Below, in pieces: positions 14,538-24,219 of a stretch of 32,040 nucleotides of DNA. The position numbers and the translations under genes are program-made. The number at the start of each line of letters is the position of its first letter. Position 1 is the stretch's first letter. The notes beneath the pieces were generated by a model. That model was not told where the DNA came from and did not search any database. It saw nothing but the letters and a program-made list of their open reading frames with translations. The stretch is from Herpetosiphonaceae bacterium (GTDB lineage: Bacteria > Chloroflexota > Chloroflexia > Chloroflexales > Herpetosiphonaceae), in NCBI GenBank assembly GCA_013813565.1, contig JACCRK010000300.1, forward strand, positions 1-32,040. The letters run 5' to 3'.

Positions 14538-14921
14538 CTAGCGTTTAATATATTCCTCATCATCAAGGATTGTGCTGATGAGGTTGATCAGCTCATCGAC
14601 CTCAAACGGCTTCTGCATAATCACGGCACCCTCATCCTCAAGCTCGCTGAACCACGGCTTACGATTCAGGGCGGTCAGAATCAGGATTGGAATCCCCTCG
14701 TCCTGCAGGCGCTCGCGCAGCCGACCAAAGGTCTCCACGCCATCCATCTGTGGCATCATAATATCGGAAATAATCAGGGCTGGCGTGATTGTTTCCAATA
14801 GCTTCAGACCATCAGCCCCGTTGTTAGCCAGGACCACATCGTAGCCGGCCTCACGGAGCGCAATCTCTAGCACCATTTGCAGGGCTAAATCGTCGTCCAT
14901 TACAACAATAGTTTTTGACAT
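14538..14921 (-). CDS. Single-domain response regulator (CheY-like)
   Basis: A 127-aa receiver domain with no output domain. The acidic pocket is D9-D10-D11 (VMDDDLAL), the phosphoacceptor is D53 in ISDIMMPQMDG, and the switch residues are T83 (ILTALN) and K104 (MQKPFEVDEL). It should relay a phosphoryl group from a histidine kinase not encoded in this window, acting on a partner protein. AAGGGGA precedes the ATG. Its promoter carries a dyad abutting the -10 box and a clear terminator follows, so it is a monocistronic unit. Confidence 0.93.
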   Translation of the reverse strand: MSKTIVVMDDDLALQMVLEIALREAGYDVVLANNGADGLKLLETITPALIISDIMMPQMDGVETFGRLRERLQDEGIPILILTALNRKPWFSELEDEGAVIMQKPFEVDELINLISTILDDEEYIKR

Positions 14922-15010: not shown

Positions 15011-15943
15011 TCAGGCGCTGGCATGGAGCGCCGCTGAGATGGCGTCCAGGGTCTGGGCGGCGTGGGCGGGCCAGTCGGGCTGGTCGGTCAGCGTCTGGGC
15101 CAGCCCGATCAGATCGGCGCTGCCATCGGCGAGGATGCTTTCGGCCAGCTCAGCATCGCCAAGGGTGCCATTGGCGATCAGCGGCACATCGACCACGCCG
15201 CGAATCGACTCGACGAGCGGGATCTGCCAGCCGGGAAAGTAGGCGATCAGCTGGTCGGGATCGGTTGGGACCACCACATCCAGCAGATTGATCCCGGCGG
15301 AGACGAGCTGGCGGGCGCCGACCCGGCTCTCGTGCAGCGTAATCCCATCGGGCCGCAGCTCATCAACCACCAGGCGATAGCCGATCAGGAACTGCGGGCC
15401 AAGCCAGCGGCGAATCGCCGCGACAATCTCAGTCGCCAGCCGCAGCCGCCCGAGCCCGCCGTACTCATCAGCCCGCTGATTGACCAGGGGCGAGTGCAGC
15501 TGATGCAGCAGCGAGCCAGCGGCACCATCCAGCATGACCCCCCGGCAGCCAGCCGCGTGGGCGCGCCAGGCCGCCGCCACAAACAGCTCACAGATATCCG
15601 CCAGCGGCTGGGTCTGGACTGTGGCCCACTCCAGCGGGGCGTGGCTGAGCAAGGGCAGCAGCGGCGTGTTGTGCGCCGCCAGCGGCTGGACAATCTGGGC
15701 CAGATCCGGGGTCAGCAGATCGTCATAGAGTCCGGCGCTGCCCGGCTCCGTCACCGGGTGGACATGGAGCGGCTCGGAGATAACCAGGCCAACTCCGCCC
15801 GCCGCCCAGCTCAGGTAGTGCTGTAGCAACGCTGGAGTGGTAAAGCCACCGGCCGCCGCAACCCCAATAGCCGCTGGCGACCGAACAATCCGGTTGCGGA
15901 CGGTGAGCGGGCCAATCGCGAACGGCGAGAATAGATGATACAT
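15011..15943 (-). CDS. Old yellow enzyme-family TIM-barrel protein with altered active site
   Basis: A 310-aa FMN-type (beta/alpha)8 barrel related to NADH:flavin oxidoreductases. The start LFSPFAIGPLTVRNRIVRSP and the LLHQLHSPLVNQRADEYGG segment (145-163) are diagnostic of the family. The usual substrate-binding pair H-x2-H/N and following Tyr in IHxAHGYL are here D139, A142 and S144. The QLxHAGR strand reads LLSHAPL. The FMN-phosphate end (ANGTLGDAE, DLIGLAQTL) looks better kept. This suggests loss or change of ene-reductase activity, although flavin binding may persist. It is the usual length of short OYE-like barrels without the extra Fe-S domains. The gene is monocistronic; a heptamer repeat lies upstream. 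Confidence 0.8.
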   Translation of the reverse strand: MYHLFSPFAIGPLTVRNRIVRSPAAIGVAAAGGFTTPALLQHYLSWAAGGVGLVISEPLHVHPVTEPGSAGLYDDLLTPDLAQIVQPLAAHNTPLLPLLSHAPLEWATVQTQPLADICELFVAAAWRAHAAGCRGVMLDGAAGSLLHQLHSPLVNQRADEYGGLGRLRLATEIVAAIRRWLGPQFLIGYRLVVDELRPDGITLHESRVGARQLVSAGINLLDVVVPTDPDQLIAYFPGWQIPLVESIRGVVDVPLIANGTLGDAELAESILADGSADLIGLAQTLTDQPDWPAHAAQTLDAISAALHASA

Positions 15944-16000: not shown

Positions 16001-16151
16001 TGTTATTTTCCTCAGTTTGCCCCTCCGTTGCAACGCGAATACAGGTTTTTTTGAGCAAAAACCCCCTGGTGTCAGCAAACTGTAACCTCATTGAGTTGTT
16101 CCGACAGGGGCGCTGGACTACCTTTAGGACAGGCACTTCAAGGAGCAGATT

Positions 16152-19100
16152 ATGGCTATTGCACCGTTTGATCGTCTTCTTCTTCCCCGCATTCGACAGG
16201 CGCAGCGGCAGCGCACGTATGCCCGTCATGTGATCGCGGAATGGGAAGCAAGTTTACCTGGGCGTTTGCTGCCCATGCTGGCAGCCCTCCCGCTGCCGAT
16301 CTATTCCCGTTCGCCCCGGCCCGACGCTGCTCAGGCCGGCACCCTGGGTGCAGCGCTGGCCCTCAGCCCACGGCTACGCCTGGTTGGCGGCGTTGGCAGC
16401 GGGCGATCGCTGGCAATTCAGCAGCTGGTGCTGGCCTGGGCACATGGAACGCAGACCCTGCCGGCGGTCTACCCGCTGATTCTCCATCTTCCCACCGCCG
16501 TGATCCAGCCCGATGAGGCGCTCCAGAGCTGCATCCGCGCGGCCGGGTTCGACAATGCCAAGCTGGTCGTCGAGCGTGGCCTGGCCTCGGGCCAGTGGTG
16601 CCTGATTCTGGATGACTGGGACGGGCTGGACAATCCCAACCGCGCAATCTGGAAAGAGTGGCTGCTGGATATCGCCGAGCGCTATCCGGCGCTGCCAGCG
16701 GTGATCACCACCGATGACGATGAGAGCCTGTGGCCCGACTTTGACACCTGGGCGATGGCACCGATTACGCCGGCGCTGCTGGAACAGTGGCTGCGCATTC
16801 TCCTGCCTGGTGAGGAGCCGACGCTGCTGCTGGGGCCGCTGACCAACGACGAGCGGGTGCGGCTGGTTGGCGAGCATCTGGCCGATCTGGTGGTGCTGGC
16901 CCAAACCTATGCCAACAGCGGCTTTCCGTCCAATCGCGGGCGTCTGTATGCGACAGCGCTGGACCGTATTCTGCGTCCGGTGGCCGGCGGCGATCTGCCG
17001 CGCACGCGCACGGCCCTGGCGGCGCTGGGCTATCACTGGATGACCCAGCCAACCGCGCCAACCGCCCCGGCCGCCCTGCGGCCAATTCTAGAGCATCTGA
17101 ATGGCTTGATTCTGCTTGAGCCAAACGGCCGAGTCCAGTTTAAAGTTCCGCTTTTTGCCATGTTCTGCGCCGCGCTGCATGTCGCCGCCAACCAGACCTG
17201 GGCCGAGTGCGATCCGGCGACTCCGCTGTGGAAAGCGACCATCCCCATCATCGCTGGCCTCATGACCGACCCCGAGGCGCTGTATGTGGCGGTGCGGGGC
17301 GCCGGCCGGCCCGATGCGCAGCGCACGCTGCTGCTGGGCGCCTGTCTCCGTGAGCATCACGTTCCCCTGCCAGGCTGGAGCACCGCAATTCTGGGGTCGC
17401 TGGCCCAGCTGGCGAAGGCCGAGCCCGGCCATGCGGCCGAGGTCTGGCGCTTGTTCGACAATATGCCCAATGTCGTGGCCGCGACAATTGCTGAGCAGCT
17501 GATGAGCGGCGCCAGCGGCGAGCGCTGGACGATCGCGTTTCTGCGTATTCTGCCCCCGCTGCTGGCCGCGCCGTATCTGCTGGATATTGTCGGCGATAGC
17601 CGTCTGCTGCGCTCGACCAGGCGCGTGGCGGCACTCCAGCTCCAGAGCATCAGCGAAAATGCCGTGGTGCAGCCACTGGCGCGGCTGGCTGAGCGCCCGC
17701 TGGATAACACCGGACGCATCTTAACTACCCAGCTCCTTGCGACAAGTGGCCCGGTTGGCCGCCGCTACATTGCCGACCTCATTCGTGCGGGCCGGATCAT
17801 GTTTCCCCGGCCTGACGATGGCACCGATGCCCGGGCGATTGTCACAACAGCGGCGGCCCTGCTGGCCGATCAGAGCCTGGATATGGCGGCCCATACGGCG
17901 GCCTCGGTGGCGCTGAACGGCTGCGTCAACGAGATTACCGCGCCCAGTCTGCTGAGCGCGTGTACTGCCGCCGCCGCACCCCTGCGCGAGGCCGCCCGCC
18001 GCGCCCTGCTGACCGGGGATCACTCGCTGGCCTTGCGGGCATTTGGCCGACTGGTGCTGGGCGATGATGTCCACTGGGCCGCCCGCTACGAGGCGCTGCA
18101 AACGCTGATGAGCCTGCCATCCGCCGGATCAAGTGCGCTGCTGGCCCGTTTGCTCAAGTCCGATATCCCGCTGGCGGCCCGGATTGAGGCCGCCCGAGCG
18201 CTGATGGGCCGCGATAGCGAAAGCGGGGAGCGCCTGGCGATGGTCATGCGAGACGAACAGGCCGCGCCCAGCCTGCGGGCGGCAATTGCCCTGCTTGGCA
18301 CTGGCACGCGTTCAACAGCCATGACCAGCATCTTGCTGAAGATCTGCTGTGAGCCAGCCCCGGCGCCGCTGCGGGCCAGCGTCGTTCGGGCGATGCAGAC
18401 CTGCCCCGCCGATGAAGTCTTGGCGATCCTGTCCGGCATTGTCGAGCACGAGCGCGATGATTTAGAGACGCTGGATGCCGCGATTGAAACCCTGGGCGCG
18501 ATCGGCGATGAAGGTGGGATCTGGGGGCTGCGCACAATTCTGCTGGGGCCGCTGACGGCCCAGCTCCACAGCGGCTGGCAGCAGCTCATCGCGCCCAGCG
18601 AAATAGATACGCCGCCGATCACCTGGAATATCAACGCGCTGCCGGTGTACTTTCAATGGCGCTGGGGTGTCGCCCTCTCCGCCGGCAACACCAGCGCCGA
18701 TCCGCCGACCAGCTTAAACGAGCTGGTGGCGCGCGAGGTTCAGGGTCTGCGGGGCCAGGCGGCGGCCGCGTTGAGCGCCATTGGCGGCACCGCCGCCAGG
18801 CAGGTGCTGCGCGAGGCCCTGCTTTCCAACAGCATCAACGATGGGTTTGGCCCAGCGCCAGTGGTCGCCGCCGAGCTAGCGCGCTTTGATGCCGGTCTGG
18901 ACCTGATCGAGACCCTCAACTCATCGGTTGCGCCGGCGATTCGCTGGGTGGCCGCCCACGCCTTGCAGAATGTGAATGCATCGTTCCCAACCTTACGTCA
19001 AGCGCTGCACGGAACGGAAGCCGATCTACAGTCACGCAGCGCGATGCTGCTGGCACTTGGCAACGATCCGCAGATTATCCCGATGCTGGAGACGATGATT

Positions 19101-20027
19101 GTCGATGATCACGCGCCGCTGCATCTGCGGGCCGATGCCGTGCGGGCCCTGGGCCAGATGGGGCTGCCCCACGTTGAGGGGCTGCTGCTGGCGCTGCTGG
19201 CCTCGGTTGGCCACGAGCCATCGCTGCAGATCGGCGCGCTGGATATTCTCCAGCCACCGCTGAGCCTGACAACCCTCACGGCGGTGCGCCAGATCCTGCG
19301 CGATCCACGGCCGCCAGTTGATGTGGCGGCGGCGGCGCTGCGCTGTCTGGTACGGGCGGGCGATAGCGAGTCGCTGGCGCTGTTCCTGCGCTATGCCCAG
19401 CACGATAGCCCGACCCTGGCCGTCCCAGCCATTGATGGCCTAAGCCTGCTGCACGACGGCACCGCTACGGCGCTGCTCAGCCGGCTGGCCCACACCAGCG
19501 GCAAAAGCACGCGCATTCGGCTGCACGCCACCGGCGCACTGCTCAAAATCGAGGGCAATCTGCACCTGCCGCTGGTGCGCCAGCTGGTGGAGACTGGCTC
19601 GATCAGCACCCGGCTGCTGGCCCTGGATATTCTGCTCGACGCGCTGCCCGACCCGACCACCCTGATCGAATACCTGGAGCCGTCCACGCCAACCGCGCTC
19701 CGTCTGCGCCTGGCGAACGCGCTGGCGGCCCACGGTGGCCCCGAGGCGCTGGCTGAGCTGCTCCATATGCTCGAAGAGCCAACCGAGAGCCTGGCCCTGC
19801 GCTGTCTGGCAACCGAAACGCTGTGTGTGGCGCACTACAGCGCGGTGCTCCCGCTGATTGAAACCATCGCCCGTGACGAAGAAACCCTGCTGCCACTCCG
19901 CCGCCGGGCGATCAGCGGGCTACGCCACTGGCGCAATGAACCGACAACCCTGCTGGCCTTAAGTGCGCTCGCTGATGATCCGACGCCATATATCCGTTCG
20001 TGGGCGTTGCAGTCCTTGCTCTCCTGA
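16152..20027 (+). CDS. NACHT-like STAND NTPase with long HEAT-repeat C terminus
   Basis: A 1291-aa cytoplasmic-looking protein. Start: AAGGAG lies six bases ahead of the ATG. Residues about 1-70 are a helical leader. The P-loop region LVGGVGSGRSLA (77-88) matches a Walker A except that the invariant Lys is Arg85. The Walker B is CLILDDWDGL at 150-159. PAVITTDDD near 195 is at the sensor-1 position, and a winged-helix-like segment follows to about 330. From about 480 to the end the protein is an array of HEAT-type repeats (for example RYEALQTLMSLP, LRADAVRALGQMGLPHVEGLL, RSWALQSLLS). STAND NTPases act as ligand-triggered switches in signalling and antiphage defence. No effector domain (nuclease, TIR, protease) is visible, so output may go through the co-transcribed regulator 19 nt downstream. 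Confidence 0.85.
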   Translation: MAIAPFDRLLLPRIRQAQRQRTYARHVIAEWEASLPGRLLPMLAALPLPIYSRSPRPDAAQAGTLGAALALSPRLRLVGGVGSGRSLAIQQLVLAWAHGTQTLPAVYPLILHLPTAVIQPDEALQSCIRAAGFDNAKLVVERGLASGQWCLILDDWDGLDNPNRAIWKEWLLDIAERYPALPAVITTDDDESLWPDFDTWAMAPITPALLEQWLRILLPGEEPTLLLGPLTNDERVRLVGEHLADLVVLAQTYANSGFPSNRGRLYATALDRILRPVAGGDLPRTRTALAALGYHWMTQPTAPTAPAALRPILEHLNGLILLEPNGRVQFKVPLFAMFCAALHVAANQTWAECDPATPLWKATIPIIAGLMTDPEALYVAVRGAGRPDAQRTLLLGACLREHHVPLPGWSTAILGSLAQLAKAEPGHAAEVWRLFDNMPNVVAATIAEQLMSGASGERWTIAFLRILPPLLAAPYLLDIVGDSRLLRSTRRVAALQLQSISENAVVQPLARLAERPLDNTGRILTTQLLATSGPVGRRYIADLIRAGRIMFPRPDDGTDARAIVTTAAALLADQSLDMAAHTAASVALNGCVNEITAPSLLSACTAAAAPLREAARRALLTGDHSLALRAFGRLVLGDDVHWAARYEALQTLMSLPSAGSSALLARLLKSDIPLAARIEAARALMGRDSESGERLAMVMRDEQAAPSLRAAIALLGTGTRSTAMTSILLKICCEPAPAPLRASVVRAMQTCPADEVLAILSGIVEHERDDLETLDAAIETLGAIGDEGGIWGLRTILLGPLTAQLHSGWQQLIAPSEIDTPPITWNINALPVYFQWRWGVALSAGNTSADPPTSLNELVAREVQGLRGQAAAALSAIGGTAARQVLREALLSNSINDGFGPAPVVAAELARFDAGLDLIETLNSSVAPAIRWVAAHALQNVNASFPTLRQALHGTEADLQSRSAMLLALGNDPQIIPMLETMIVDDHAPLHLRADAVRALGQMGLPHVEGLLLALLASVGHEPSLQIGALDILQPPLSLTTLTAVRQILRDPRPPVDVAAAALRCLVRAGDSESLALFLRYAQHDSPTLAVPAIDGLSLLHDGTATALLSRLAHTSGKSTRIRLHATGALLKIEGNLHLPLVRQLVETGSISTRLLALDILLDALPDPTTLIEYLEPSTPTALRLRLANALAAHGGPEALAELLHMLEEPTESLALRCLATETLCVAHYSAVLPLIETIARDEETLLPLRRRAISGLRHWRNEPTTLLALSALADDPTPYIRSWALQSLLS

Positions 20028-20046
20028 ACAGGGCTGGGGAGGAATT

Positions 20047-20838
20047 ATGGACACAACTATCGCAACCAGACCGGTAGTCCTGGTCGTAGAGGACGAACCA
20101 GCGATTGCCCGCCTGCTTGAGTTCCAACTGCGCGAGGCTGGCTGGGAGCCGGTCATCGCCCCTGACGGTTTGACGGCCCTGCGGCTGTGGAGCGATCTCG
20201 CCCCGACGCTGGTGCTGCTTGATGTGATGCTGCCTGACCTGAGCGGCTGGGAGATCTGTGCCGCTCTGCGCAGTGAAAGCAATGTGCCAATCATTATGCT
20301 GACCGCCAAAGCCTCGGACTGTGATGTTGTCCACGGGCTCAATCTGGGCGCTGACGACTATCTGGCCAAGCCGTTTAGCAACGCTCAGCTGCTGGCCAGA
20401 ATTGCGGCGGTGCTGCGCCGGGCGCACCTCAGCCCTAAGCTAGCCCTTGATGTCACGCCGCTCCAGCCGCATGCCGATCCGCCGCTGACCATACCAGCGA
20501 CCGACCAGGAGCCGTCGCAGTCCGGGGCGCTGCTGCTTCGTGAGGCGCGCCAGATCGCTGGCATGTCGTTGTATGCCGTTGAGCGGCAGCTGGGGATTCG
20601 CTGGGACTATGTACAGGCGCTTGAGCAGGGCACATTCAGCGCTATTCCCCGCCCGCTGCTCAAAAATACGATGCTGCGCTACTGCGAGTTTCTCAATGTC
20701 GATGCCCGTCCGGTGTTTGCCCAGGCGCAGCGCATGCTGCTGGCCCACCCAGAAACCCGCCGCAGCATCCGGCCCTCGATGCTGATCCTCAGCGCGACGA
20801 TTATTCTGCTGATTATTTTGCCGTTTTTCTTCCGCTAG
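20047..20838 (+). CDS. Membrane-anchored response regulator: receiver - RodZ-type HTH - transmembrane tail
   Basis: GGGAGG precedes the ATG at 20047 (263 aa); the frame is open further upstream but overlaps the NTPase gene. Residues 8-125 are a complete receiver domain: E15-D16, phosphoacceptor D59 in LLDVMLPD, T86, K108 in DDYLAKPF. A linker rich in Pro and Asp follows. Residues 158-230 match the RodZ/HTH_25 domain (LLREARQIAGMSLYAVERQL, WDYVQALEQGTFSAIPRP, LRYCEFLNV). Residues 243-262 are one hydrophobic helix, and the chain ends one residue after it. In RodZ this HTH binds MreB and precedes a membrane span and a periplasmic domain; here the periplasmic part is missing. The protein may tether a phosphorylation switch at the inner membrane. 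It is co-transcribed with the NACHT-HEAT gene. Confidence 0.9.
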   Translation: MDTTIATRPVVLVVEDEPAIARLLEFQLREAGWEPVIAPDGLTALRLWSDLAPTLVLLDVMLPDLSGWEICAALRSESNVPIIMLTAKASDCDVVHGLNLGADDYLAKPFSNAQLLARIAAVLRRAHLSPKLALDVTPLQPHADPPLTIPATDQEPSQSGALLLREARQIAGMSLYAVERQLGIRWDYVQALEQGTFSAIPRPLLKNTMLRYCEFLNVDARPVFAQAQRMLLAHPETRRSIRPSMLILSATIILLIILPFFFR

Positions 20839-20876
20839 CCAGGCTTCTGCCCCGCCTGCAACGCACTTTTTAAAGC

Positions 20877-20921
20877 GCATCCGCCCCCAGGATTTAATCT
20901 TCCTGGGGGCGGATGCAGTTT
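20877..20921. terminator. Strong stem-loop between convergent genes
   Basis: A perfect 16-bp stem (20877-20892 with 20901-20916) and an 8-nt loop lie 39 nt after the response-regulator stop, followed on the plus strand by AGTTTTA. On the minus strand an interrupted T-run follows, so it probably serves both directions. Confidence 0.85.
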
Positions 20922-20981
20922 TAGACGAGCGGTTGCAATCAACGAATTACAGCAATCGAGTGGGCTACTCCCGATCCCCGT

Positions 20982-23328: not shown

Positions 23329-24219
23329 ATGTCAAATATTGTCAAGCTGTTTGTCAATCGAGAGAAACAGACTGCTGGCTTCATCAAAATGATGGAGGGC
23401 GGTACACCCAAGCGGGTCATGATTATTGAGGCGGGCGGTGGCCTGGGCAAGTCATGGGCGATCGAATACATGCGTGAGGAATGTCAGCGCCGCAAAGTGC
23501 CCAATGTCGAGGTCGATTTTGCCGATGGGGTGATCTACGATTTCCTGGCGGTGCTCCGGCGCGCCCGCGACAGCTTTGGCGCCTCGGCATTTAATGCCTT
23601 CACCCAGACGATCAATCAAGTCACCCAGCCGACCCTGCGCATTGAAAACGTCGGCAGCTCATCCAGCAACATCACCCTGGGCGAAGCCAACAATCTGGCC
23701 GGGGCCAATGTGACAGTTGGCGATGTGGCCGGCGGCAACATCATTAAGGATAACTCGTTTGTGATCAACGCCGATAGCGCGGTAGTCCGTCAGGCGCTGC
23801 AGGATCGGCTGACCGTCGCTTTCTTCGAGTGTCTGGAGCAGCTGACGGCGCAGGGCCCGGTCTGCTTTTTCTTCGATACCTACGATAAAGTCACCATCGA
23901 GGCCGAAAGCTGGCTGCTCACCCAGCTGCTGCCTCGGCTTCGCGAGCGACAGCTAACCAATGTGGTGGTGGTGATTGCTGGGCGCAGCGCCCCCAAGCTC
24001 GACAACGCCTGGGACAGCATTATCGCCCGCACCGGGCTGGATCTCTTCAAGGTGGAGCACGCCACCGAATACCTGGTGCAGCGCTGTGGACTCAAGGATG
24101 AGGCCAGCGTGATCAATGCACTTTTTCAGGCCAGCACCGGCCTGCCGCAGCTCCTGGCCATGTTGGCCGAAAATATTTTGCGCTCCCAAGATACCGGAGG
24201 CCAAGATGATTGGCTCTGA
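23329..24219 (+). CDS. Small P-loop STAND-type NTPase (partner of the next gene)
   Basis: A 296-aa protein that is essentially an NTPase core. After FVNREKQT (a typical STAND lead-in) comes Walker A EAGGGLGKSWA (34-44, Lys41), Walker B CFFFDTYDK (179-187, Asp183) and a sensor-1 strand VVVVIAGRSAP with Arg219. STGLPQLLAMLAENI (269-283) matches the GLP motif at the end of the nucleotide-binding domain. Between Walker A and B, residues 104-148 are a Gly/Asn/Ser-rich insertion (NITLGEANNL, NVTVGDVAGGNII). No winged helix or repeat arm follows in this chain. Those parts occur in the next gene, whose start overlaps this one by 14 nt in another frame. The ribosome site is weak (AGG). Confidence 0.85.
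   Translation: MSNIVKLFVNREKQTAGFIKMMEGGTPKRVMIIEAGGGLGKSWAIEYMREECQRRKVPNVEVDFADGVIYDFLAVLRRARDSFGASAFNAFTQTINQVTQPTLRIENVGSSSSNITLGEANNLAGANVTVGDVAGGNIIKDNSFVINADSAVVRQALQDRLTVAFFECLEQLTAQGPVCFFFDTYDKVTIEAESWLLTQLLPRLRERQLTNVVVVIAGRSAPKLDNAWDSIIARTGLDLFKVEHATEYLVQRCGLKDEASVINALFQASTGLPQLLAMLAENILRSQDTGGQDDWL

Follow-up and report, generated by a model that had tools for sequence, protein, structure and literature searches.

A tail-anchored response regulator with a RodZ-type helix-turn-helix domain and a linked HEAT-repeat gene in Chloroflexales

Introduction

What does a response regulator act upon when its receiver is followed not by a winged helix but by a RodZ-type helix-turn-helix (HTH) domain and a terminal membrane helix? 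The question is raised by one gene in a contig of a Herpetosiphonaceae bacterium, whose 32,040 nucleotides (the window, i.e., the whole stretch of DNA analysed) had previously been interpreted from the letters alone. That sequence-only reading described a receiver in front of a RodZ module and proposed either that MreB-linked cell shape is placed under two-component control or that the protein is a membrane-tethered DNA-binding regulator. The reading preferred here, held with a confidence slightly short of even, is that the protein is a phosphorylation-switched orphan response regulator at the inner face of the membrane, acting together with a HEAT-repeat partner on a protein target.

The features on which the argument draws are listed in Table 1. 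Added to the earlier description are a co-conserved upstream gene (16152-20027), a second paralogue with receiver (REC), HTH_25 and transmembrane (TM) parts, and a conserved upstream site.

Table 1. Features of the regulator locus (positions in the window)
Feature	Position	Strand	Details and basis
Tail-anchored response regulator	20047..20838	+	263 aa; ORF list, Pfam, orthologue alignment
Receiver domain, OmpR/PhoB type, residues 11-119, phospho-acceptor D59	20077..20403	+	Pfam 5e-26
HTH_25 (RodZ-type) domain, residues 163-223	20533..20715	+	Pfam 5.3e-12
Predicted C-terminal transmembrane helix (tail anchor), residues 236-262	20752..20832	+	Kyte-Doolittle, AlphaFold2
Shine-Dalgarno-like GGGGAGGA, 3 bp 5' of ATG	20036..20043	+	Sequence reading
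Strong hairpin 3' of regulator	20870..20924	+	-42.6 kcal/mol, z -9.4 vs shuffles
Partner gene, 1291-aa HEAT-repeat protein, degenerate NACHT-like N-terminal domain	16152..20027	+	Pfam
Direct repeat GTGTCAGCAAACTGTAAC, two TGTMA half-sites 11 bp apart	16069..16086	+	Upstream alignment

Domain architecture and distribution of the regulator

The coordinates, length and domain assignments given for this gene by the sequence-only reading agree with the open reading frame, its translation and Pfam, in which the receiver scores 91.5 bits against a cut-off of 30.2 and the RodZ-type HTH is matched as HTH_25 at 45.8 bits against 24.6. The residues from which a complete, phosphorylatable receiver had been deduced (D59, T86, and K108) never vary in 23 aligned orthologues, and D16 and P109 are likewise invariant; the domain thereby carries the acidic pair, phospho-acceptor Asp, Thr/Ser, and Lys by which response regulators are recognised. 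Its best partial NCBIfam matches are MtrA, RpaB, and PhoB, none of the listed NCBIfam cut-offs being reached, and its best structural matches are the receivers of YycF, VicR, BaeR, and PhoB. With all catalytic residues present, the receiver thus resembles those of OmpR/PhoB/MtrA-type regulators, from which the protein differs in having HTH_25 and a tail anchor as its output instead of a winged helix; no Trans_reg_C match was returned by Pfam.

The last 28 residues form a single hydrophobic helix, in keeping with the one terminal transmembrane helix originally described; at a Kyte-Doolittle value of 2.62 in a 19-residue window, with 1 residue after, it is classed as membrane. Of the two outcomes by which the sequence-only reading would have been refuted, a missing HTH_25 match and a non-membrane final helix, neither was obtained. 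AlphaFold2, run on the single sequence of the regulator, models this anchor helix with a pLDDT of about 90 and the HTH as five helices (residues 160-233, pLDDT mostly 80-91), while the receiver part of the model (pLDDT mostly 30-70) was left out of the argument. Beyond the scored helix window, only 0-7 residues precede the C-terminus in 30 of 30 orthologues inspected, which upholds the claim that a periplasmic domain is missing, and basic residues stand N-terminal to the helix in most orthologues of the HTH alignment. By its single terminal helix, the regulator qualifies as a tail-anchored membrane protein, its N-terminal side presumably lying in the cytoplasm. The ATG at 20047 is preferred as the start over a 291-codon frame from 19963 because of the Shine-Dalgarno-like sequence in front of it. 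The hairpin behind the gene is likely the operon terminator; it was not among the matches of a consensus terminator scan.

Orthologues were detected in 44 of 100 near relatives by a protein search combined with a profile of the HTH plus anchor, which excludes a chance ORF; their identity to the regulator is 57-61% in its own family and about 36-48% elsewhere. Within a 400-genome sample of the phylum, all matches that count as strong, 25 with E no higher than 2.3e-29, belong to the same order as the window; the next one (2e-16) comes from another gene that shares the domain. Judged by these homology searches, conservation of the predicted protein is established order-wide. A whole-protein scan of the genome contigs was dominated by ordinary receivers, and the one apparently full-length match in it (L065) was rejected as a plain OmpR-type regulator beside a kinase.

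The HEAT-repeat partner gene

Directly upstream of the regulator lies a gene in whose product Pfam detects HEAT_2 in nine stretches (9.4e-28) and NACHT just under its cut-off (2.6e-5); most of the PDB entries that it matches are designed HEAT-like proteins. The Walker A lysine is replaced by arginine (GxxSGRS), as it is in most domain-bearing orthologues (GxxSGR[ST]), and the NACHT-like domain is missing altogether from a group of orthologues of 984-991 aa; HEAT scaffolding is therefore the conserved part of the partner. Like the NACHT/STAND NTPases with HEAT repeats, the partner combines an N-terminal NACHT-like domain with a long array of HEAT repeats, but it departs from them in the replaced lysine and in the loss of the domain from some orthologues. 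A role in defence was considered and rejected, since neither the partner nor the regulator matches the PADLOC defence library.

The two genes are closely linked: in 42 of the 44 genomes with a regulator, it lies directly 3' of the HEAT gene, at a short distance and in the same orientation on a shared contig; in the other two it is found close to the start of one contig and the HEAT gene on a different one. When 20 loci were compared with the window, the stop of the HEAT gene and the start of the regulator usually overlapped, and the pair was constant while its outer neighbours differed between genera. No histidine kinase gene lies within the pair. The HEAT gene also occurs in 14 genomes in which no regulator was detected; in three of these cases, the end of a contig or a disrupted reading frame accounts for the absence, and the remaining 11 come from two genera in which the regulator has seemingly been lost, so the partner can act without it. 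In one of the 42 linked genomes (G043; L210 4401-6362, minus strand), the N-terminal part of the partner is fused in frame to HTH_25 and the anchor, with neither the receiver nor most of the HEAT repeats; this may be a genuine fusion, or it may have arisen by deletion or misassembly.

Comparison with RodZ and MreB

The genome of the window also has a normal rodZ and mreB, a point that the sequence-only reading had left to be checked: canonical RodZ is encoded by a separate gene (L001) on contig C275, and MreB, with 450 bits, on contig C316. HTH_25 is matched four times in this genome, namely in L001, in the regulator, in L002 (a second REC-HTH_25-TM protein, whose outer tail is Pro/Thr-rich), and weakly in an unrelated protein. 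A true RodZ and a paralogue of the L002 type are present in the other genomes of the order checked as well. The outer tail of this second class is short or Pro/Thr-rich (L002 1111-2160, minus strand; L153-L162; L197-L200), and many of its members have Glu, or some other change, at the position of the phospho-acceptor Asp, suggesting a pseudo-receiver.

All canonical RodZ proteins in the HTH alignment keep a YxRGF or VxRGF motif in helix 4, which aligns at the position of F60 and Y64 of E. coli RodZ, both required for MreB binding (PMC4047632). In 30 of 30 orthologues of the regulator, both aromatics are replaced and helix 4 is one residue shorter; the aromatics are likewise missing from the second REC-HTH_25-TM class in the genomes checked. 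The regulator shares with RodZ a five-helix HTH_25 domain, cytoplasmic and followed by one membrane helix, but differs from it by an N-terminal receiver and by the absence of both a periplasmic domain and the MreB-contact aromatics.

Searched against the PDB, the HTH profile of the family gave its best matches to 3fym (6e-9) and Chlamydia CT009 4gqm (8e-6), both RodZ-type, followed by 2ewt (4e-4), and it also matches 2wus; of these, 3fym and 2wus are taken here to be the RodZ proteins of S. aureus and T. maritima, and 2ewt the DNA-binding BldD. The net charge of the HTH averages +2 in the regulators, whereas the RodZ proteins of the order average -1.4. The alignments further show an invariant A191 and a fixed D/E at 187, two positions at which classical Cro/cI proteins read bases, and W186, Q190, and E193 are invariant as well; by the comparison at 191 and 187, the predicted recognition helix of the regulator is RodZ-like.

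The upstream direct-repeat site

The direct repeat GTGTCAGCAAACTGTAAC, which lies 65 bp 5' of the HEAT gene start, has its sole match in the window at this place, where 0.08 would be expected, and the pattern is rare genome-wide. Among 21 regulator-bearing loci, 16 have the site with 11-13 of the 13 fixed positions matching (equalled by 0 of 100 shuffles in each), and four further ones have a weaker variant. At five loci that have the HEAT gene and no regulator, and at which the genomic setting differs, the site scores no better than shuffles.

The 11-bp direct-repeat geometry is presumed to be that of OmpR/PhoB/WalR-type sites, and the site appears to match the core of the E. coli Pho box. 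Membership in a Pho regulon was nonetheless rejected, as the genes behind the other copies included none recognisable as pst or pho, and the site is therefore named only by its OmpR/PhoB/WalR-type direct repeat. In genomes without the regulator (G015 and G021) it also precedes other genes, and in genomes outside the family of the window, some of them regulator-free, it stands 5' of a gene for a membrane protein of roughly 310 aa. Since the site occurs in genomes without the regulator, the case for autoregulation through it is weakened. The protein that binds it is more likely a separate winged-helix regulator. In the family of the window, the same site is found 5' of a gene for a coiled-coil membrane protein of roughly 240 aa (L221, L222, and L241-L247), suggesting a small common regulon.

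Discussion

Sequence comparison establishes an intact phospho-acceptor site, a predicted five-helix RodZ-type HTH, a predicted tail anchor, the linkage of two genes, and the loss of the putative MreB contacts. A mechanism that accommodates them would begin with a histidine kinase encoded elsewhere, which would phosphorylate D59; receivers of the OmpR type would pair once phosphorylated, and the flexible Pro-rich linker would let two HTH domains meet at the membrane, thereby altering their grip on the target. The likeliest target would be a protein, and in the first place the HEAT partner, which the regulator may draw to the membrane or set free from it; the main alternative would be DNA. A protein target is favoured by the RodZ-like recognition helix (A191 and D/E187) and by the RodZ-type proteins among the best structural matches, and the choice of the HEAT partner by the 42/44 linkage, by the constancy of the pair amid changing flanks, and by the single frame of G043. 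Against this adaptor role stand the mildly basic HTH and BldD as third-best relative, both of which fit DNA binding, together with the survival of the HEAT gene alone in 11 genomes, the possible artefact in G043, and the want of a kinase in the pair.

DNA as the target leads to the half of the sequence-only interpretation that is kept as a rival, a membrane-tethered transcription regulator whose HTHs, paired by phosphorylation, would bind operator DNA, possibly at its own promoter; this is a serious contender, although its probability is put well under one half. The HTH_25 and HTH_19 matches of the regulator belong to the Cro/cI fold, the HTH is net positive with a relative in BldD, and the tested loci that have no regulator also lack the site conserved 5' of the operon. 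Among known transmembrane transcription regulators, moreover, no non-DNA-binding domain is more frequent than the receiver (9.2%; PMC10269533). However, the residues fixed at 191 and 187 in the recognition helix argue against base reading, and the upstream site is a direct repeat of the OmpR/PhoB/WalR kind, whereas Cro/cI dimers usually bind inverted repeats; the site also stands before other genes in regulator-free genomes (G015 and G021). Furthermore, the HTH of E. coli RodZ does not bind DNA (PMC6946637).

The half that the sequence-only reading itself favoured, a RodZ-like cell-shape adaptor binding MreB under two-component control, has become very unlikely. Its attraction lies in the RodZ-like order of HTH_25 and one transmembrane helix in a genome that has MreB, but that genome also has a separate canonical RodZ, and the helix-4 residues lost from the regulator are intact in the RodZ of the same genomes, so that control of MreB is unlikely; neither the missing periplasmic domain nor a linked gene that encodes a HEAT protein instead of an elongasome component fits such a role. 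It is also improbable, though less so, that the two genes are mere neighbours in a housekeeping operon and that the targets of the regulator are unrelated to the HEAT protein: the HEAT gene does survive alone in 11 genomes of two genera, but the persistence of the pair in 42 of 44 genomes, in variable surroundings and with a stop that often overlaps the next start, speaks against coincidence.

With respect to known systems, membrane-bound regulators with receivers have already been recognised as a class (PMC10269533). The regulator resembles these hybrid transmembrane transcription regulators in that a single chain carries receiver, HTH, and membrane helix; it differs from them in having no extracytoplasmic part, and its DNA binding is putative. 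The text of PMC10269533 contains no mention of RodZ, HTH_25 or Chloroflexi, and among the open-access papers searched none was found on HTH_25 response regulators or on the term "membrane-anchored response regulator", nor any study of tail-anchored response regulators or of a receiver-RodZ-HTH protein with a HEAT partner. The locus may thus represent an order-specific pair in which a RodZ-type HTH serves as a non-DNA output of a response regulator and exerts membrane-localised, phosphorylation-switched control over a HEAT scaffold, a proposal advanced with reserve and at rather less than even probability. A true RodZ accompanied by two receiver-RodZ-HTH-membrane paralogues, the second of them tail-anchored, would mean that a cytoskeleton adaptor domain has moved into two-component signalling, and the constant HEAT partner offers a direct, testable candidate for the output of the regulator.

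Other genes in the window

A stand-alone receiver (14538-14921) and an FMN oxidoreductase-like protein (15011-15943), both on the minus strand, are encoded divergently from the HEAT gene and are kept beside it in its own family only. Farther along the window, on the plus strand, the overlapping ORFs 23329-24219 and 24116-27445 encode a P-loop-like product and then a zinc ribbon with TPR and membrane helices; the start of the second resembles an out-of-frame reading of the first, so the two may be one frameshifted gene, or the second may have a later true start.
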